Shown piece by piece: positions 5,597 to 15,146 of a stretch of 24,392 bases of DNA. A program made the position numbers and the translations under genes. The notes below the pieces were generated by a model. It worked only from the letters and a program-made list of their open reading frames with translations. It was not told the DNA's origin and made no database searches. This DNA comes from a virus. Location of the stretch: positions 1 through 24,392 of IMG/VR virus record IMGVR_UViG_3300025652_000528; one strand, written 5' to 3'. How positions within the stretch are numbered: position 1 is the stretch's first letter; each line of letters begins with the position of its first letter.

Positions 5597-7195
5597 ATGA
5601 GCAATATAATTGGAGACGAAGCATGTCCTAATTGCAGATCAAAAGGACACGATAGGACTGGTAATCATTTGATAATATTCTCAGATGGTGGAAAGCATTG
5701 TAACAAATGCGGGTATACAGCTAATAAACAGGATAAAATAGAAATGCAGGTTAAGACAAAGAGTACAGATATAAAAGCTATTAAAGATTTACCGATAAAA
5801 GCATTGCAAGATCGTGGTATAGATCAAACAACTTGTGAATTGTATGGAATTCGTACAGCTTTCGATGAAAGTACAGGTAAACCTGACAGCTACTACTACC
5901 CAATCACTGTGAGAGGCTCTGTAGTCGCGTATAAGCAACGAAAGCTACCTAAGACATTCAGTATCATAGGTCAACCCTTAAAAGGGCAGCAAGTGGAGTT
6001 TATAGGACAATCTGTAGCAGTAGAGGGTAAGCGTCTACTAATAACCGAGGGACAGGATGATGCCCTAGCTGCATATCAGATGTTGTCTAAGTACAAGCAA
6101 GCGGTGGTGTCAGTACCCCACGGTGCTAATATAAATTGCTTTACAGATAATAAGACGTTCCTTAGTAAGTATGAAGAAATAATATTATGTCCAGATCAGG
6201 ATGAACAAGGTCAAAAGCTAGTAAATGACATAGTAAAATTGTTCCCTGATATTAAGATCATGGATATTACCGAGAAAGATCCCAATGATATGCTTTTGAC
6301 TGGAAAAGAGAAGTCTTTTGTAAACAGTTATTTCAAAGCCAAGTCATTCAAGCCTGATGGGTTCGTAACTGTTGATGATGTCTTTGATGAAGCCACAAGG
6401 ATGCCTGAATGGGGTAGAGCGTGGTGTTGGGATAGTCTTACTAAGCTGACGTATGGTAGGCGTGATGGTGAAGGTGCGTACTTTGGTTCAGGTGTTAAGA
6501 TGGGTAAGAGTGAAGCGGTCAATCAGATCGTACACTACGATACACAGGTACTAGGTGATAAGGTGGCGGTCTTTAAGCTAGAAGAAAAGCCTAGCATGAC
6601 AGTCAGAAAGATAGCGGGAAAGATAGCGCACAAGCAATTCCATAAGCCTGACGCTGACTTCACTCAACAGGAATTGATAGATGGTGTAGAGGCTATTGGT
6701 GATAGTGTCATCCTTTATGACAGCTATGGTTCTACTAAGTGGGATGATTTAAAGTTAGCGATACGTCATGCTGTAGTAGTGGAAGGTGCAAAGACTGTTA
6801 TCATTGACCCACTAACTCGATTGACCACTGGAATGGTGGCTTCAGATGCTAATACTGAACTGGAGCGTATAGCCGATGAAATCAGTAAGTTAGCAAAGGA
6901 TATTGGATTCTTTTATATCTTCTTCTGTCACCTGAAATCACCGCAGACAGGCAAGGCACATGAGGAAGGTGGCAAGGTACGGTCAAATCAATTTACAGGT
7001 AGTAGGGCTATGATGAGGGCGTGTTACTATATGATCGGGATCGAGAGAGACAAGACAGTAGACGATCCAATAGAAAGAAATACTTCTAGCTTTGTTTTAT
7101 TAGAGGATCGAGCTTTTGGTAATGTTGGAAGTTTTGATGTATATTATAACCGTGATACAGGTGACTACTTAGAACCCGTTCAGGAGTTTAAATGA
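5597..7195 (+). CDS. T7 gp4-like DNA primase-helicase
   Basis: This bifunctional replisome enzyme makes RNA primers and unwinds DNA ahead of the polymerase. Visible in order: a zinc ribbon (C10, C13, C35, C38); a TOPRIM primase core with E151 in LLITEGQDDA and D200/D202 in ILCPDQDEQG; a RecA-type helicase with a P-loop GSGVKMGKS (297-305), catalytic KLEE (328-330), Walker B VIIDPLT (D404), then CHLKSPQTGKAHEEGG and QFTGSRAMMRA matching the T7 H3/H4 region. The length (532 aa) is close to T7 gp4 (566). AGAGG at 5581-5585 lies upstream. It heads the replication operon and overlaps the following methyltransferase by four bases. Confidence 0.95.
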   Translation: MSNIIGDEACPNCRSKGHDRTGNHLIIFSDGGKHCNKCGYTANKQDKIEMQVKTKSTDIKAIKDLPIKALQDRGIDQTTCELYGIRTAFDESTGKPDSYYYPITVRGSVVAYKQRKLPKTFSIIGQPLKGQQVEFIGQSVAVEGKRLLITEGQDDALAAYQMLSKYKQAVVSVPHGANINCFTDNKTFLSKYEEIILCPDQDEQGQKLVNDIVKLFPDIKIMDITEKDPNDMLLTGKEKSFVNSYFKAKSFKPDGFVTVDDVFDEATRMPEWGRAWCWDSLTKLTYGRRDGEGAYFGSGVKMGKSEAVNQIVHYDTQVLGDKVAVFKLEEKPSMTVRKIAGKIAHKQFHKPDADFTQQELIDGVEAIGDSVILYDSYGSTKWDDLKLAIRHAVVVEGAKTVIIDPLTRLTTGMVASDANTELERIADEISKLAKDIGFFYIFFCHLKSPQTGKAHEEGGKVRSNQFTGSRAMMRACYYMIGIERDKTVDDPIERNTSSFVLLEDRAFGNVGSFDVYYNRDTGDYLEPVQEFK

Positions 7196-7656
7196 TGAAT
7201 AACGATCTAATGTTTAGCAGTAAGAAGGATGATTGGGAGACTCCTCAATGGTTGTTTGATGAGTTAGATGCAGAGTTTGGTTTTGACTTAGATGCTGCTG
7301 CTACTGAGGTGAACAGTAAAGCAGCAAGTTTTTATGGTATTGATGGAAAAGAACCAGAACTAACAACCGCTTTACATCCTGATCAAAAATGGTACGGCAA
7401 CGTATTTTGTAACCCTCCTTATTCAAGAGGACTACAAAAGAAGTTCATTAAGAAGGCTTACGAGGAATCAACTAAAGGCAATACAGAAGTTATTGTCATG
7501 TTATTACCATCAAGAACAGACACGCTAGCCTTTCACGAATATATTTATCACAAAGCAGAGATTAGATTCATTAAAGGTAGACTAAAGTTTGAGGTAAATG
7601 GTGTACCTGCTAAAGATGCTGCACCTTTTCCATCTATGTTGGTGATATACCGATGA
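7192..7656 (+). CDS. Phage DNA N6-adenine methyltransferase, copy 1
   Basis: This is a phage Dam-type enzyme (Pfam Dam family) that would transfer a methyl group from SAM to adenine N6, probably shielding phage DNA from host restriction. The catalytic motif is CNPPYSRGLQ (NPPY at 74-77). The N-terminal WETPQWLFDELDAEFGFDLD and C-terminal GRLKFEV...APFPSMLVIY are typical of the family. At 154 aa it is complete. Two ATGs are possible: 7192 overlaps the upstream stop, while 7195 is better spaced from AGGAG at 7182-7186. A paralogue lies at 12772-13233. The recognition sequence cannot be read from the protein. Confidence 0.9.
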   Translation: MMNNDLMFSSKKDDWETPQWLFDELDAEFGFDLDAAATEVNSKAASFYGIDGKEPELTTALHPDQKWYGNVFCNPPYSRGLQKKFIKKAYEESTKGNTEVIVMLLPSRTDTLAFHEYIYHKAEIRFIKGRLKFEVNGVPAKDAAPFPSMLVIYR

Positions 7657-8132
7657 GCGTATTCTGTTGGGATACTGAGGCTAATGGGTTACTAGACACA
7701 GTAACAAAGATACATTGTCTATCCTATAAGGCTTTAGATGAAGATGTTCAGACAGTTACCGATAATTATGGTGACGTTTTCAAAGAAGGTGATACATGGG
7801 TGGCTCATAATCAATACGGTTATGACCTCCCTTTACTTATAAAGTTGGGCATCATTAAAGACTTTACAGTCAATAGTGTTACAAACAATGATGGTACAGT
7901 TATAAATGTACAGTTTATAGATAGCCTTGCACTATCGAGGGAATGGTATCCAGACCTACCAAGAAAGCATGGATTACTTGCTTGGTCTAAAGAGCTAGGT
8001 ACTTATAAGCCTACTATTGATGATTGGGATAACTTAGAATTGAAGGAATATATTGAGAGATGTGAGGAGGATGTACTGACCACAGAAAAGGTGTTCTTAT
8101 TTTTAACTGATAAACTAGGGATTAAATTATGA
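7653..8132 (+). CDS. DNA polymerase 3'-5' exonuclease domain as a separate protein
   Basis: This 159-residue DnaQ-type exonuclease corresponds to the proofreading domain of T7 DNA polymerase. Exo I is CWDTEANGLL (Asp and Glu at about 7 and 9), Exo II is AHNQYGYDLPLL, and Exo III is the aspartate in CEEDVLTTEKVF. The tyrosine expected four residues before that last aspartate in T7-type enzymes is replaced by Arg, so activity may be altered. It overlaps the polymerase gene by four bases (ATGA) and the upstream methyltransferase likewise. It presumably works in trans with the polymerase subunit; reduced or absent proofreading is an alternative. Confidence 0.88.
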   Translation: MSVFCWDTEANGLLDTVTKIHCLSYKALDEDVQTVTDNYGDVFKEGDTWVAHNQYGYDLPLLIKLGIIKDFTVNSVTNNDGTVINVQFIDSLALSREWYPDLPRKHGLLAWSKELGTYKPTIDDWDNLELKEYIERCEEDVLTTEKVFLFLTDKLGIKL

Positions 8133-9592
8133 TTAACTTACCACAAAATGTAGACCTAGCAAACAAGACATACGAGGGTATGTGTAGACAGGAAAGGTAT
8201 GGTGTAGCTTTTAACTCTATAGCTGCTACTGAACTAACTCTTTGGATTGACAAGCGTATGGAAGAGATACGACTAGAGGTAGAGCCTAATCTACCCGCTC
8301 GCCCACTCAATACAGCAGAGATTAGGGCATGGACACCACCTAAGATACAGTTTAGAAAAGATGGAAGTGTCAGTGCTATATGTGAGAAATGGTTTGATGA
8401 GATAACATTAGCAGGAGCACATGCGGGTTACTGGGGCTTTAAAGATGGGGTTGGATTCTTATTACCGCATAATGAACCTGTAAAAGATAACCTTCCTAGT
8501 GAATTAAAGCACCAACATCACATTAAGAATTGGTTATTGACTAAAGGTTGGAAACCTACCCTCTGGAATCTCAAGAAGGATAAACACAACAAACCTATGA
8601 GAGACACTAGTGGGAAAGTGATAACTACATCCCCTAAGTTCCATGAAAACGGACGTATATGTCCTAACTTAAAGAGGTTAGGTAATAATGATAACATAAT
8701 AAAACCTATTATCGAATGGCTATCACTACGCAACAGACGCTCTGTACTGTTGAATGAGGGACGTAACACTGGATGGTTAGCAAACCCTAGATTAGCTACA
8801 GATGGACGATTAAGTGCAGCCTCTAGTGGTCTAACCAATACTAAGAGACAAAAGCATACAGTGGTGGCTAATGTACCTAGAGTAAGTTCACTGTTAGGTA
8901 AGGAGATGAGAAGTCTGTTTATTTCTAGTGAAGGTAGAGTGATGGTAGGGGCTGATGCTAGTGGGTTAGAGGCTAGGGTGAAGGGACATTATACATTTAA
9001 GTTTGATGGTGGTGAGTACGCTAATAAACTGCTAGATGATAACTATGACGAACACGCTGAAAATGCTGAACTGTGGGGATGCTCCAGACAGGATGCTAAG
9101 TCCCCTGCTTATGCCTTGCAGTACAACTGTCAACCTCCTAAATTCAGTGAGACATTAGGAGTACCTCTAAAAGTAGGTAAGAGGCACTATGAAGCATACT
9201 GGAATAAGAACTGGGCTTTAGCTAAAGCTATTGAAGAGGTTGAAAAGGAGTACGATAACAACCATCAGAAGTTTATCACTACTATTGATGGTGGAAAGAT
9301 TGTGACTAGAGCAAAGCATAGTGTATTCAATGCTAAATGTCAGAGTACAGGAGCTAAGATCATGGATATGGCGGGAGTTATAGCTGATGATTTTATAATA
9401 GAACGAAGTCTTGACGCTCACAGGGTAATTTATTATCATGATGAACTACAGTACGAGACAACACCTGAACTTGGTGATGAGGTTGGACGTATCTTAGTTA
9501 AGGCTATGAACCTTGCAGGAAAAGTCTTTAAACTGAACGTACCTATTACAGGTGATTACTCAATAGGTAAATCGTGGGCAGATACACATTAG
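8129..9592 (+). CDS. Family A DNA polymerase, polymerase domain only
   Basis: This 487-residue protein matches the polymerase half of T7 gp5. Its start, with CRQERYGVAFNSIAATELTL, aligns with the T7 sequence just after the exonuclease domain. Motif A is VGADASGLEARVKGHY, motif B is RQDAKSPAYALQY with the Arg, Lys and Tyr spacing of T7 (Tyr at the Y526 position), and motif C is YYHDELQYE with the catalytic HDE. No exonuclease domain is present; it is encoded immediately upstream with an ATGA overlap, so two coupled cistrons make what is one polypeptide in T7. It would be the replicative polymerase. Confidence 0.93.
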   Translation: MINLPQNVDLANKTYEGMCRQERYGVAFNSIAATELTLWIDKRMEEIRLEVEPNLPARPLNTAEIRAWTPPKIQFRKDGSVSAICEKWFDEITLAGAHAGYWGFKDGVGFLLPHNEPVKDNLPSELKHQHHIKNWLLTKGWKPTLWNLKKDKHNKPMRDTSGKVITTSPKFHENGRICPNLKRLGNNDNIIKPIIEWLSLRNRRSVLLNEGRNTGWLANPRLATDGRLSAASSGLTNTKRQKHTVVANVPRVSSLLGKEMRSLFISSEGRVMVGADASGLEARVKGHYTFKFDGGEYANKLLDDNYDEHAENAELWGCSRQDAKSPAYALQYNCQPPKFSETLGVPLKVGKRHYEAYWNKNWALAKAIEEVEKEYDNNHQKFITTIDGGKIVTRAKHSVFNAKCQSTGAKIMDMAGVIADDFIIERSLDAHRVIYYHDELQYETTPELGDEVGRILVKAMNLAGKVFKLNVPITGDYSIGKSWADTH

Positions 9593-10356: not shown

Positions 10357-11253
10357 ATGCCATTGATCAGAGCTAAGATTAAGACTAAAGGAGAGAACGG
10401 ACGTACAGCCCTGATCGATGGCGATGTACTGGTATATTCTTGTGGATTTGCAAGTGATATAAGGACATACACTTGCTCCGATGGCTCTTCTTTTCAGTAT
10501 AAGAAAGAAGCTAAAGAACATTGCTCAGAGTTTCACCTAGATGTAGAAGCTATTAAAAAGAGGGTAAAAGCTGAACCTGTAGAGAACTGTTTACACTCTG
10601 TAAAGCTAATGATAAAAGACATTAAAGAAAAGAGTGAAGCATCTAATCATAAAATTTACTTAACAGGTAAGGGGAACTTCAGGCACGATCTCCCCTCCCC
10701 ATATACATATAAGGGTAACCGTAAGGACACACCTAAACCTTTACACTATCAAGCTATCAGAGTCTATATGGTATCTACTTGGGACGCTATAATAACTGAT
10801 GGACAAGAAGCTGATGACGCTATGGGAATAGCTCAAGTCAACAGTCCAGAGGGTACGACTACTATCTGCACAACTGATAAAGATTTAGATATGATTGCGG
10901 GACATCACTACAACTGGAATAAAAAAGAAAACTATACTATTGGAGAGTTTGAGGGCATCCTTAACTTCTATCAACAGATACTCAAGGGTGATAGAACAGA
11001 TAACATCTTTGGTATCAAAGGTATTGGAGATGTAAAGGCTAGACAAATCTTATGGAAGATGGATAATGAAAAAGAATTAAGTATAGAAACTCAACTAGCA
11101 TATGCTGAGAACGGTAAGACACCTGAAGAGTGGCTAACCAATGCTCGATTGTTATGGATTAGACGAGAGGAGGGTCAAATGTGGACTCCTGAACCTGAAC
11201 ATAGAACATCTTGGCTACAGGCGTATATGGAAACATTAGATAATGAAGTTTAG
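10357..11253 (+). CDS. T7 gp6-like 5'-3' exonuclease (FEN/PIN fold)
   Basis: The enzyme would remove RNA primers and degrade host DNA for nucleotides. Motifs in order: ALIDGDVLVYSCG with metal-binding D21 and D23; FRHDLPSPYTYKGNR, the substrate-gripping Arg/Tyr/Lys region; ITDGQEADDAMG; TTDKDLDMI; then the helix-turn-helix DNA clamp GDRTDNIFGIKGIGDVKA. The length (298 aa) matches T7 gp6 (300). GGAGA at 10346-10350 is the ribosome binding site. The last 11 bases overlap the endonuclease I gene in another frame. Confidence 0.93.
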   Translation: MPLIRAKIKTKGENGRTALIDGDVLVYSCGFASDIRTYTCSDGSSFQYKKEAKEHCSEFHLDVEAIKKRVKAEPVENCLHSVKLMIKDIKEKSEASNHKIYLTGKGNFRHDLPSPYTYKGNRKDTPKPLHYQAIRVYMVSTWDAIITDGQEADDAMGIAQVNSPEGTTTICTTDKDLDMIAGHHYNWNKKENYTIGEFEGILNFYQQILKGDRTDNIFGIKGIGDVKARQILWKMDNEKELSIETQLAYAENGKTPEEWLTNARLLWIRREEGQMWTPEPEHRTSWLQAYMETLDNEV

Positions 11254-11656
11254 AGGACGTAGTAAGTTTGAAACACGTATAGCTAAAAACTTAGAAGAAC
11301 GTGGCGTTAACTTTACCTACGAAACAACATCATACAATTATCAAATTAGACCATACAACGCTAAGTGTCAGGAGTGTGGTAGTAGTAATATATATGAAAC
11401 TAGGAAGTACACACCAGACTTCTTCTTGCCTAACGGTATAATAGTAGAAGCAAAAGGTAGGTTTAAACCTAGCGATAGGAAGTTAATGAAGGCTGTTATG
11501 AGTAGTAATCCAGAGCTAGACATACGTATGTTGTTTCAGAACCCTAACGTGTGGTTAACTAAATCAAAAAAGAAGAACTATGGTACTTGGTGTGATTATG
11601 AAAACATCAAGTGGGATAAGAAACTAATACCACAAGAGTGGTTGGAGGAAGTATGA
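11243..11656 (+). CDS. T7 gp3-like endonuclease I (Holliday junction resolvase)
   Basis: This structure-specific nuclease resolves branched DNA before packaging and helps break host DNA. The T7 active-site set is present: Glu10 in SKFETRI, Asp59 in YTPDFFLPNG, and Glu69 and Lys71 in IIVEAKG. The end, WDKKLIPQEWL, matches T7 gp3 DKLIPAEWI. Between the first helix and the catalytic strand it carries an insertion with CQECG (C42, C45) that I do not recall in T7 gp3. A single CxxC cannot by itself complete a zinc site. It lacks the basic C-terminal tail of T7 gp3. The stop overlaps the next ATG. Confidence 0.93.
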   Translation: MKFRGRSKFETRIAKNLEERGVNFTYETTSYNYQIRPYNAKCQECGSSNIYETRKYTPDFFLPNGIIVEAKGRFKPSDRKLMKAVMSSNPELDIRMLFQNPNVWLTKSKKKNYGTWCDYENIKWDKKLIPQEWLEEV

Positions 11657-11898
11657 GTGAACTATTCGCATTGCTTGTAGGAATATGTAGTATAAACTAC
11701 TGTTCATTTTCTATAGAACATCGGGTTACAGGAGACTGGTTAGCTGTTAATGTTTATGACAAACGGTCAGAGGTAATAGATAAGGTTCAGTTTGATATAT
11801 CAGCATTAGAATTTGATATTATTCTTCGTGAACATTTAAAGTTAAAGCCTATTCTTCCTAGTTGTTTAGGGAAGACAATGGTGACTAGTAATGATTGA
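11653..11898 (+). CDS. Hypothetical protein, 81 aa
   Basis: The start is placed at ATG 11653, overlapping the upstream TGA, because GGAGG at 11644-11648 is an ideal ribosome binding site; an ATG at 11638 would include it. The N-terminus MSELFALLVGICSINYCSF is hydrophobic and could be a weak signal anchor, followed by a strand-rich part. No family is recognised. Its end overlaps the phosphoesterase gene by eight bases. Confidence 0.6.
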   Translation: MSELFALLVGICSINYCSFSIEHRVTGDWLAVNVYDKRSEVIDKVQFDISALEFDIILREHLKLKPILPSCLGKTMVTSND

Positions 11899-12610
11899 CA
11901 CTATGATGGTACATAGTGTTAGTTCTAGCACTAAGAATAATGCAGCTAGATTCTCACACAATAGTATACAAGGACACTTCCATAGTAACTTTGAGATTAG
12001 CTATGCAGCAGACACTAATCAGATTAGATGGGCTATGACCGTAGGATGTTTAATGAATCCAGATGGTGTAGCAGCTAGGTATGGGTCAGGTATAATATTA
12101 AAAAGACCTATACTAGGATGTGGTGTAGTAGTAAGTAGTAAGGGTAACTATTTAATTATCAGTGACTTACACATACCGTACCACCATCGTGATGCTTTTA
12201 GTTTCCTAGAATCTGTGTCTGAGTATTATGATTGTAAAGTAATACTTAATGTAGGAGATATGATTGACCACCATGCGGGTAGCTACCATGAGTCTGAGCC
12301 TGATGCTCTTAGTCCAGAGGAAGAGTACTATCAGTCTATGGAGTACTGTAATGAGTTACAAGATATATTTCCTAGCATGATTATAACCGAGGGCAATCAC
12401 GACAAGATACCACAGAGGAAGCTAAAGACTTGTGGACTACCTGCGTCTATGGTGTATGATTACAATAAACTATATAAGCTAGATGCTAAGTGGAAGTGGG
12501 TAGACAAGTATACGTTTAATTCTAATGGAGGACAGCCTGTACTAGTACCTATGGTACTTAATCAGAAAGGGAGATGGAATAAGAAAGTACATGGGAGTAA
12601 AGTAGGATGA
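11891..12610 (+). CDS. Metallophosphoesterase with permuted domain order, 239 aa
   Basis: This is a calcineurin-like phosphoesterase by motifs: ISDLHIP (D92, H94), VGDMIDHH (D123, D126), TEGNHDK (N169, H170), plus VQ-type strand IQGHFH (G28, H29, H31) and an upstream His8. In family members the GHxH strand and the following VGC...RPILGCGVV come after GNHD. Here they form residues 1-82 and the DxH/GDxxD/GNHD half follows from 85, with PVLVPMVLNQKGRWN still near the C-terminus. All metal ligands seem present, so a permuted but folded enzyme is possible; a dead remnant or misassembly is the alternative. Starts at M1, M5 or M6 are all possible because no strong ribosome binding site is visible. 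Confidence 0.8.
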   Translation: MIDTMMVHSVSSSTKNNAARFSHNSIQGHFHSNFEISYAADTNQIRWAMTVGCLMNPDGVAARYGSGIILKRPILGCGVVVSSKGNYLIISDLHIPYHHRDAFSFLESVSEYYDCKVILNVGDMIDHHAGSYHESEPDALSPEEEYYQSMEYCNELQDIFPSMIITEGNHDKIPQRKLKTCGLPASMVYDYNKLYKLDAKWKWVDKYTFNSNGGQPVLVPMVLNQKGRWNKKVHGSKVG

Positions 12611-12765: not shown

Positions 12766-12771
12766 AGTACA

Positions 12772-13233
12772 GTGGCTATACACAACGCACTAAAAACCAG
12801 TAACAGTAACACATGGGAAACACCCAAGAGTTTGTTTGATGAACTAGACAAGGAGTTTAACTTTACTTTAGATGTAGCTGCGTCATATGAAAATAGAAAG
12901 TGTAAAGAGTATTACTGTGAAGAAGCTGAATCAATAGGAAAGTCAGGACTAGACCTAGATTGGCATGGTTCAGTGTGGTGTAACCCTCCTTACTCTAGGG
13001 GTTTACAAAACAAGTTTATTAAAAAAGCTAACCAAGAGTACTATGCAGGTAATGTAGAATCTATTGTAGTTCTATTACCTGCTAGAACTGACACGTTAAT
13101 GTTCCATGAGTATGTATACAAAAAAAGAAATGTAGAATTAAGATTCCTAAAAGGAAGGTTAAAGTTTGAGGTAGGCGGAGTAGCAAGTAAAAACCCTGCA
13201 CCATTTCCATCCATGTTAGTTATCTTTAAATAA
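12772..13233 (+). CDS. Phage DNA N6-adenine methyltransferase, copy 2
   Basis: This is a second Dam-type enzyme, started by GTG at 12772 with GAGGGAG at 12754-12760 upstream. It shows WETPKSLFDELDKEFNFTLD, the catalytic CNPPYSRGLQ (NPPY at 71-74) and the C-terminal GRLKFEVGG...APFPSMLVIF. By eye, well over half of the last 85 residues are identical to copy 1, while residues about 40-65 differ strongly. This suggests ancient duplication or separate acquisition, with possible divergence in target recognition. Both copies look intact. Confidence 0.9.
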   Translation: MAIHNALKTSNSNTWETPKSLFDELDKEFNFTLDVAASYENRKCKEYYCEEAESIGKSGLDLDWHGSVWCNPPYSRGLQNKFIKKANQEYYAGNVESIVVLLPARTDTLMFHEYVYKKRNVELRFLKGRLKFEVGGVASKNPAPFPSMLVIFK

Positions 13234-13237
13234 CAAA

Positions 13238-13252
13238 AGTATCATTGATACT
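13238..13252. promoter_or_regulatory. AGTATC-family palindrome, 7-1-7
   Basis: AGTATCATTGATACT lies between the stop of methyltransferase copy 2 and the ribonucleotide reductase start, 25 bases before the ATG and ahead of AGGGAG at 13263-13268. No good promoter is visible upstream. Confidence 0.75.
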
Positions 13253-13277
13253 ATTAAATATAAGGGAGAAGTAATTA

Positions 13278-15146
13278 ATGAAGTTATATGAAGATTATAT
13301 TCATCAAAGTAAATACGCACGGTACTTAGACGAACAACAACGTAGAGAATCGTGGGATGAAACTGTGTCTAGGTACGTAGATTACTGGGTTGATAAGGGG
13401 CTTATAGAAGGGGAGGATATAACAGACATAGTTACAGCTATATCTGACAAGAGAGTTATGCCTTCTATGAGAGCTATGATGACTGCGGGTAAAGCATTAG
13501 ACCGTGATAATGTAGCGGGATATAACTGTTCATACTTGCCAGTAGACCACCCTCGCGCCTTTGATGAAGCACTATATATACTGTGTTGTGGTACTGGTGT
13601 TGGCTTCTCAGTTGAGCGTAAGTTTACTGATAAGTTACCTGAAGTAGCTGAAGAGTTCCAAGATACTGATAGCACTATAGTAGTAGCAGATAGTAAACTA
13701 GGTTGGGCTAGTTCATACAAAGAGTTAATATCATTATTGTATAATGGTAGAGTACCTACATGGGATACTTCCAAAGTTAGAAAGAAAGGAGAGAGGTTAA
13801 AGACCTTTGGTGGTAGAGCTAGTGGTGCTGAACCTCTGATTGACTTGTTCCAATTCACTACTTATATATTTAAAACAGCAGCAGGGCGAAGGCTAACTCC
13901 GTTGGAGTGCCACGACTTGATGTGTAAAGTAGGAGATATAGTTGTAGTAGGTGGTGTTCGTAGGTCAGCGATGATTAGTTTATCAGACCTAGAAGACAGT
14001 CAAATGAGAACAGCTAAGTTTGGTAGATGGTGGGACGCTAACCCACACAGAGCATTGTCTAATAACTCAGTTTGCTATGAGTCTAAACCTACTATGGAGC
14101 AGTTCATGGAAGAATGGAAAGCATTATACATGTCACACTCAGGTGAGCGTGGTATATTTTCTCGTGCTGCTGCTAAAAAGCTATCACCTAGTCGTAGAGA
14201 TACTAACTTTGACTTCGGGACGAACCCTTGTAGTGAGATAGTTCTGCGTCCAAATCAATTCTGCAATTTAACAGAGGTAATTGTTAGACCAGATGATGAT
14301 CTTGATTCTCTCAAAGAGAAAGTTAGATTAGCTACCATACTAGGTACGTTACAGGCTACACTAACAGACTTCAGATACCTACGAGGTATATGGAAGAAGA
14401 ATACAGAAGAGGAACGCTTACTTGGTGTTAGTATGACCGGTATAAGTGACCACCCTGTGTTAATGAATGAGAAATCTATAGACCTACCTAGATGGTTGGA
14501 GGAACTAAAAGATGTTTCCATTAAGACTAATAAGATATGGGCAGATAAGTTGGGTATTCCTGAAAGTACCAGTATTACTTGCGTTAAGCCTAGTGGTACT
14601 GTTAGTCAGCTTTGTGATACTGCTAGTGGTATCCATCCTCGTTACAATAGCTACTACATTAGACGAGTACGACAAGATAACAAAGACCCTCTGACAAAGT
14701 ACATGGATAAGACTGGTATACCAAATGAACCGTGTTCTATGAAACCAGATACTACTACTGTATTTGAGTTTCCAATGAAAGCTCCTAAAGGAGCGTTGAC
14801 TAGAACAGATAAGTCTGCGATAGAACAGCTTGAGCATTGGTTAGTGTATCAAAAGTATTGGTGTGAGCATAAGCCAAGCATAACTGTTTATGTACGTGAG
14901 GATGAGTGGATGGAGACAGGTGCATGGGTGTATAGTCACTTTGATTATATGAGTGGAGTTTCATTCTTACCATTCGACAATGGGTCATACCAACAAGCAC
15001 CGTACACAGACTGTACAGAAAATGAGTACAACGATGCGTTAAAAGCAATGCCAGAAGATATACAATGGAGCAGTATGATTGAGATGGAAGATAACACAAC
15101 TAGCAGTCAGGAGTTAGCCTGTACTGGAGGAGCATGTGAACTATGA
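13278..15146 (+). CDS. nrdJ: Class II (adenosylcobalamin-dependent) ribonucleotide reductase
   Basis: The enzyme reduces ribonucleoside triphosphates or diphosphates to deoxy forms, supplying dNTPs for phage replication, with vitamin B12 generating the radical. Seen: C84 in GYNCSYLPV and C329 in NQFCNLTEV, the redox pair; N316, C318 and E320 in the active-site loop NPCSEIVL; CCGTGVGFSV; VKPSGTVSQ; and a C-terminal CTGGACEL with C615 and C620, the re-reducing pair. No R2 subunit gene or glycyl-radical motif is nearby, which supports class II. The 622-residue length is on the short side for monomeric class II enzymes. AGGGAG precedes the start, and the stop overlaps the DUF3310 gene. Confidence 0.92.
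   Translation: MKLYEDYIHQSKYARYLDEQQRRESWDETVSRYVDYWVDKGLIEGEDITDIVTAISDKRVMPSMRAMMTAGKALDRDNVAGYNCSYLPVDHPRAFDEALYILCCGTGVGFSVERKFTDKLPEVAEEFQDTDSTIVVADSKLGWASSYKELISLLYNGRVPTWDTSKVRKKGERLKTFGGRASGAEPLIDLFQFTTYIFKTAAGRRLTPLECHDLMCKVGDIVVVGGVRRSAMISLSDLEDSQMRTAKFGRWWDANPHRALSNNSVCYESKPTMEQFMEEWKALYMSHSGERGIFSRAAAKKLSPSRRDTNFDFGTNPCSEIVLRPNQFCNLTEVIVRPDDDLDSLKEKVRLATILGTLQATLTDFRYLRGIWKKNTEEERLLGVSMTGISDHPVLMNEKSIDLPRWLEELKDVSIKTNKIWADKLGIPESTSITCVKPSGTVSQLCDTASGIHPRYNSYYIRRVRQDNKDPLTKYMDKTGIPNEPCSMKPDTTTVFEFPMKAPKGALTRTDKSAIEQLEHWLVYQKYWCEHKPSITVYVREDEWMETGAWVYSHFDYMSGVSFLPFDNGSYQQAPYTDCTENEYNDALKAMPEDIQWSSMIEMEDNTTSSQELACTGGACEL

Follow-up and report, generated by a model that had tools for sequence, protein, structure and literature searches.

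Probable ancient non-circular permutation of a phage metallophosphoesterase

Given that the ligand motifs of the calcineurin-like metallophosphoesterase (MPE) superfamily usually run DxH, GDxxD, GNH, H and GHxH along the chain, we questioned how a phage gene in which H and GHxH come first should be understood, as an old rewiring of a working enzyme or as an error. The gene encodes a protein of 239 amino acids and lies in a virus record of 24,392 bases, the whole of which was analysed (hereafter, the window; Table 1). Segment A denotes the first half of ordinary MPEs, B their second half and C their last strand, such that ordinary proteins read A-B-C and the window protein B-A-C.

Table 1. Location of the permuted MPE gene, its segments and its syntenic neighbours in the window
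Feature	Position	Strand	Evidence or remark
Permuted MPE gene, order B-A-C	11891..12610	+	blastp, PHROG_221 profile, profile from A-B-C proteins only
Segment B, residues 1-83, second half of ordinary MPEs, now at the front	11891..12139	+	blastp, six canonical MPEs
Segment B ligands H8, H29, H31 (VHS, GHFH)	within 11891..12139	+	residue conservation
B/A junction, reads VVVSSKGNYLII	12125..12160	+	predicted loop between strands 75-81 and 86-91
Segment A, residues 85-214, N-terminal half	12143..12532	+	blastp; Pfam Metallophos 87-214, E=4e-7
Segment A motifs DLH (92-94), GDMID (122-126), GNHD (168-171)	within 12143..12532	+	D92, H94, D123, D126, N169, H170 invariant
Segment C, residues 215-233, last strand PVLVPMVL and GRW, C-terminal as usual	12533..12589	+	blastp, homologue comparison
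Tail HGSKVG, private to the window protein, outside the conserved enzyme	12590..12607	+	other B-A-C proteins are without it
Endonuclease gene (PHROG_945), upstream of the MPE, in the syntenic block	11243..11656	+	
Ribonucleotide reductase gene (PHROG_367), downstream of the MPE, in the syntenic block common to A-B-C sister phages	13278..15146	+	

Order of segments in the window protein

Aligned by blastp with six ordinary phage MPEs, the window protein fell into three pieces in each case, always in the order B-A-C: residues 88-217 resembled the first half of the ordinary enzymes, residues 5-83 the part after it, and residues 214-233 their last 20 residues. Against MEP301, the A piece gave E=1e-34 and the B piece E=1e-12, while the short C piece was recovered at 53%-73% identity over 15-20 residues in five ordinary MPEs other than MEP301. 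The PHROG_221 (phage metallo-phosphoesterase) profile matched the window protein (E=2.8e-40) in two separate stretches, as it did four other B-A-C proteins, whereas it matched the A-B-C proteins L143 and L209 in one continuous stretch. A profile made from A-B-C proteins alone matched the window protein with, in chain order, profile positions 133-212, 3-127 and 211-230, and Pfam PF00149 (Metallophos) scored above its cut-off but was confined to residues 87-214.

A sequence-only reading of this DNA had proposed that the second half of an MPE was moved to the front, and had staked the proposal on residues 1-82 being homologous to the C-terminal half of phosphoesterases; such homology was found (residues 5-83), and with each segment separately homologous and some 20 divergent homologues in the same order, the proposal holds. 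Residue positions and blastp likewise agree that GHFH (28-31) and the segment with RPILGCGVV (72-80) precede GDMID and GNHD, and that PMVLNQKGRWN (220-230), taken in that reading for the unmoved C-terminal segment of phage versions, corresponds to the C-terminus of ordinary MPEs. The C-terminal VHGSKVG, which had been likened to an HG motif, is a coincidence, as no other B-A-C protein has it.

Because each segment is homologous to its ordinary counterpart, the window MPE still belongs to the calcineurin-like superfamily, as a permuted variant, even though its H and GHxH motifs lead the chain. Wherever a protein of the clade is complete, C follows A and never B, which is not the order of a classical circular permutation (B-C-A). 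Judged from sequence comparison, then, the gene product is a calcineurin-like MPE of the PHROG_221 family in which the A-B unit is circularly permuted and C unmoved, making the permutation non-circular as a whole; retention of the fold is a matter of prediction.

Metal ligands, selection and predicted fold

All ligand motifs of the superfamily are present in the window MPE and invariant across the B-A-C clade. In the B-A-C alignment, H29, H31, D92, H94, D123, D126, N169 and H170 are identical in 21 of 21 rows; one row does not reach H8, which is identical in the other 20, bearing out the earlier impression that no ligand had been lost. The B/A junction is kept as G/K-N-x-L in most B-A-C proteins. 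Diverged pairs that yielded an estimate had dN/dS of 0.03-0.09, with synonymous sites near saturation in some, and one nearly identical pair, too close to judge, gave 0.27. Such strong selection, together with about 20 phage versions in the same order, looks like an old, working rewiring and not an error.

AlphaFold modelled the window MPE with confidence (pLDDT 88.0, pTM 0.89) similar to that for the A-B-C control L143 (88.6 and 0.88), from an input alignment that combined B-A-C proteins with A-B-C relatives entered as separate A and B fragments. Once the blocks were reordered, the secondary structure elements corresponded nearly one to one: in the window model, block B comprises E4-6, H14-21, E24-27, E35-40, E45-50 and E75-81, block A E86-91, H102-112, E115-121, H142-159, E163-166, H173-181, H191-194, E201-204 and E207-209, and block C E215-220; in the control, block A comprises E2-7, H18-29, E33-38, H44-47, H58-75, E80-83, H91-96, H107-110, E118-120 and E122-127, block B E130-135, H142-149, E152-155, E163-168, E173-178 and E203-209, and block C E212-217. 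Members of the superfamily have a two-layer fold whose halves flank a di-metal site. The suggestion that the enzyme may still fold is consistent with a confident model that has the canonical set of elements in permuted order.

A Foldseek search of the PDB with the control returned 61 matches at E<=1e-3, including VPS29, MJ0936, LpxH and Mre11, and the same search with the window model returned none at that threshold (best, Mre11, 3.5e-3 over 130 columns). Since Foldseek depends on chain order, weak and partial matches are expected of a permuted protein and are not positive proof of permutation. Among viral proteins in BFVD, A0A516M849 (62% identity), whose structure was predicted independently, matched the whole window model over 237 columns with a TM score of 0.94.

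Other BFVD viral matches (A0A2I4Q1Y4, A0A2I4Q1Z7, D6PG06, D6PG07, A0A514CY74, A0A8S5LBG5 and A0A8S5P6X8) include short fragments as well as long proteins, and two are named Hint (intein); the enzyme fold may often be split or interrupted. A natural family split at the A/B boundary had been suspected from the BFVD fragments and was set aside when the gene proved intact in the one record checked, that of K1E.

Distribution, phylogeny and gene neighbourhood

Six other IMG/VR contigs carry the whole window protein and a seventh nearly all of it, and an eighth contig begins inside A. These contigs represent two haplotypes, one near-identical to the window and the other ~99.2%-99.7% identical to it outside a block at 12766-13274, which it lacks. 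A further 19 distinct full-length B-A-C proteins (L018-L023, L101, L103, L106, L186, L187, L189, L191, L192, L194, L197-L199 and L202; L208 is partial) are 48%-71% identical to the window MPE, and pairwise identity among B-A-C proteins is as low as 43%. That the order arose as an assembly or chimera artefact of a single metagenome contig is therefore wildly improbable: the protein recurs in other contigs and in both haplotypes, and the divergent homologues, found in varied gene contexts, already refute an artefact in practice. The B-A junction, where an assembly error might have been feared, is very probably sound.

Counted as distinct cores, 21 proteins were B-A-C, including one shortened copy of the window protein, compared with 122 A-B-C and 11 A-B. 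Among isolate phages, the best 40 of 636 matching records fitted the window protein in two pieces ending before its C-terminus, implying that B-A-C occurs in no isolate phage among the matches listed; the A-B-C sister L143 had 637 matching isolate phage records, and the 60 listed each matched it in a single piece. One scan of genome contigs gave three relatives, each A-B-C. A plasmid search with the window MPE gave no match, and a PDB search found no sequence relatives of it. No second, ordinary MPE was found elsewhere in 14 B-A-C records, which may be incomplete.

In trees built from A and B concatenated in one common order for all proteins and rooted by midpoint only, the B-A-C proteins formed one clade (FastTree 0.963; IQ-TREE UFBoot 95). 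The clade was also recovered by IQ-TREE from A alone (99) and, for 17 of 19 proteins only, from B alone (94). It lies inside the A-B-C family, joined with combined support of 100 to a sister group of A-B-C proteins (L143, L209, L236, L235, L116, L108, L121, L230, L233 and L175). These closest relatives share the GNH and VHS...NA...QGHxH signatures with B-A-C proteins (in L143, for example, 'STGNHDLLPKRKA', 'CLLVHSVSANTRNNATKYSYCSVQGHHHS' and 'KRPILGCGVILDGVPYTVPMMLNSKGRW'), but, unlike the window MPE, keep the canonical order. Several sister and related loci (L230, L116, L121, L233 and L236 among them) come from metagenome 3300032212 in contigs near 49 kb, which opens the A-B-C sister lineage to study in near-complete genomes.

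The window gene stands in a block of primase-helicase, polymerase, exonuclease, endonuclease, MPE and ribonucleotide reductase. The order polymerase-exonuclease-MPE-ribonucleotide reductase is common to the window, B-A-C locus L103 and A-B-C loci L209, L235 and L236, which suggests that the change happened in place, inside the gene; the remaining B-A-C loci have other neighbours within the stretch examined. Other PHROG_221 phage MPEs (for example, Vibrio phage AS51 gp17 and enzymes of phage Phi NF-1 and of Pelagibacter and Methylophilales phages) have the same segments and metal motifs as the window MPE and a similar neighbourhood, with exonuclease and endonuclease, but are ordered A-B-C, and Autographiviridae examples add an N-terminal extension absent from the window MPE.

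Several other features of the window were observed. A second gene for a Dam-type methyltransferase (12772-13233, PHROG_111) follows immediately after the MPE operon; it is a relative of the one at 7192-7656 and occupies the block that is cleanly missing in the other haplotype (L002, L003, L004, L007 and L008). Two genes with a 4-base overlap appear to encode the family A DNA polymerase, one its exonuclease part (7653-8132) and one its polymerase part (8129-9592); these match PHROG_17 positions 670-827 and 838-1233, and the relative L103 has one longer ORF there. Ahead of the first gene, a CG-rich alternating run (CGCGCGCGCGGGCGCGG) is found within positions 1-450, along with short palindromic repeats, GTATCCGGATAC among them.

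Route of the permutation and predicted function

All cut points of the permutation fall in loops between strands. In A-B-C sisters, A starts with M-x-N-T/C-L-I-I-S-D, and at the B/A junction most B-A-C proteins have G/K-N-T/F/Y/I-L-V/I-I/V-S-D; this resemblance suggests that A was joined at its original start. B begins in the loop ahead of the strand that bears the ligand histidine ('KDTDVLMVHS' in the sister L209, 'DTLMVHS' in B-A-C proteins), and C in the loop ahead of 'PVLVPM'. We propose that an A-B-C coding sequence was permuted once, in the ancestor of a phage clade known so far only from metagenomes, such that the A-B unit became B-A and the final strand C stayed in place. A partial tandem duplication (A-B-A-B-C) would have created the B/A junction, and the first A and second B would then have been lost. 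In the rewired chain, B and A would pack as they do in the ordinary enzyme, retaining a metal site formed by D92, H94, D123, N169 and H170 from A and H8, H29 and H31 from B.

Excision of A-B and its reinsertion as a circle, or template switching, could have given the same outcome, namely a circular permutation of A-B with C in place, and duplicated A-B-A-B intermediates were not found among the loci fetched. Such a route is possible but seems the less likely one, for there is no scar or repeat at the ends: GTACAT, put forward in the sequence-only reading as a microhomology, occurs at chance level (19 in the window vs 19.3 expected), and none of six diverged relatives checked had it at either end of the gene. 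The DNA no longer records an event of this age. As for its direction, midpoint rooting would leave room for B-A-C as the ancestral order, with A-B-C derived from it, yet A precedes B in all isolate phage MPEs listed and in the solved structures matched by the control, and the B-A-C clade sits within the tree next to just one A-B-C subgroup, which makes that polarity most improbable. VPS29, one of the structures matched by the A-B-C control, belongs to the MPE superfamily and serves mainly as a scaffold. With some superfamily members acting in this way, the permutation could be genuine and catalysis lost in favour of another role, such as binding of a partner or nucleic acid. We regard this as unlikely, as loss of catalysis is not expected where every predicted metal ligand is invariant across about 20 B-A-C proteins, and dN/dS is low. 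One ancient non-circular permutation of a working PHROG_221 phage MPE, with fold and metal site kept, is thus the reading we favour on sequence comparison and modelling, at a probability of roughly 85%.

The permuted MPE would cut phosphodiester or phosphomonoester bonds with two metal ions. We consider it a predicted metal-dependent phosphoesterase whose targets are probably DNA or nucleotides, because its gene neighbours form a block of DNA and nucleotide metabolism; the searches made found no evidence on the substrate of PHROG_221 enzymes. Another phage MPE, gp48 of mycobacteriophage A10ZJ24, is an active phosphodiesterase that disrupts the DNA of the host and acts against its defence (PMC12287305). 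Activity has been shown for gp48 and is predicted for the window MPE, for which a counter-defence role may be a live alternative.

Natural permutations of other folds are known in phages. The capsid protein of Bordetella phage BPP-1 is a non-circular permutation of the HK97-like fold (PMC3863775) and, like the window MPE, a natural phage protein with swapped segments and one segment unmoved, but it concerns a capsid fold with a solved structure and not a predicted enzyme fold. Jumbo phages carry circularly permuted DNA adenine methyltransferases (PMC7824862), in which, as in the window MPE family, permuted and unpermuted forms of a phage enzyme coexist, but the permutation is circular and the fold and enzyme are different. 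No published report of the B-A-C order in an MPE was found in the literature searched, nor any literature on circular permutation together with metallophosphoesterases, which is weak evidence of absence as subscription journals fell mostly outside the search. With the enzyme family and permutations of other folds already known, the B-A-C MPE is a real, conserved and new variant. It is likely that this is a non-circular permutation of the MPE fold, new as far as the literature was searched, that arose in one ancient event without loss of the active site, with A-B-C and B-A-C forms at equivalent gene positions in related phages.

Swaps in which a further segment stays unmoved are rarely documented and have usually been recognised from solved structures alone. 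As profile searches and order-dependent structure searches split or under-score permuted proteins, these are easily missed or misannotated in metagenomes. Here, with a permuted clade beside an unpermuted sister in comparable places among their neighbouring genes, one can examine directly where the cuts fell, in what order events took place and what the change costs in function. If our reading is true, a phage enzyme, in a form not previously described in the literature searched, would have been rewired by a single ancient event without losing its active site.
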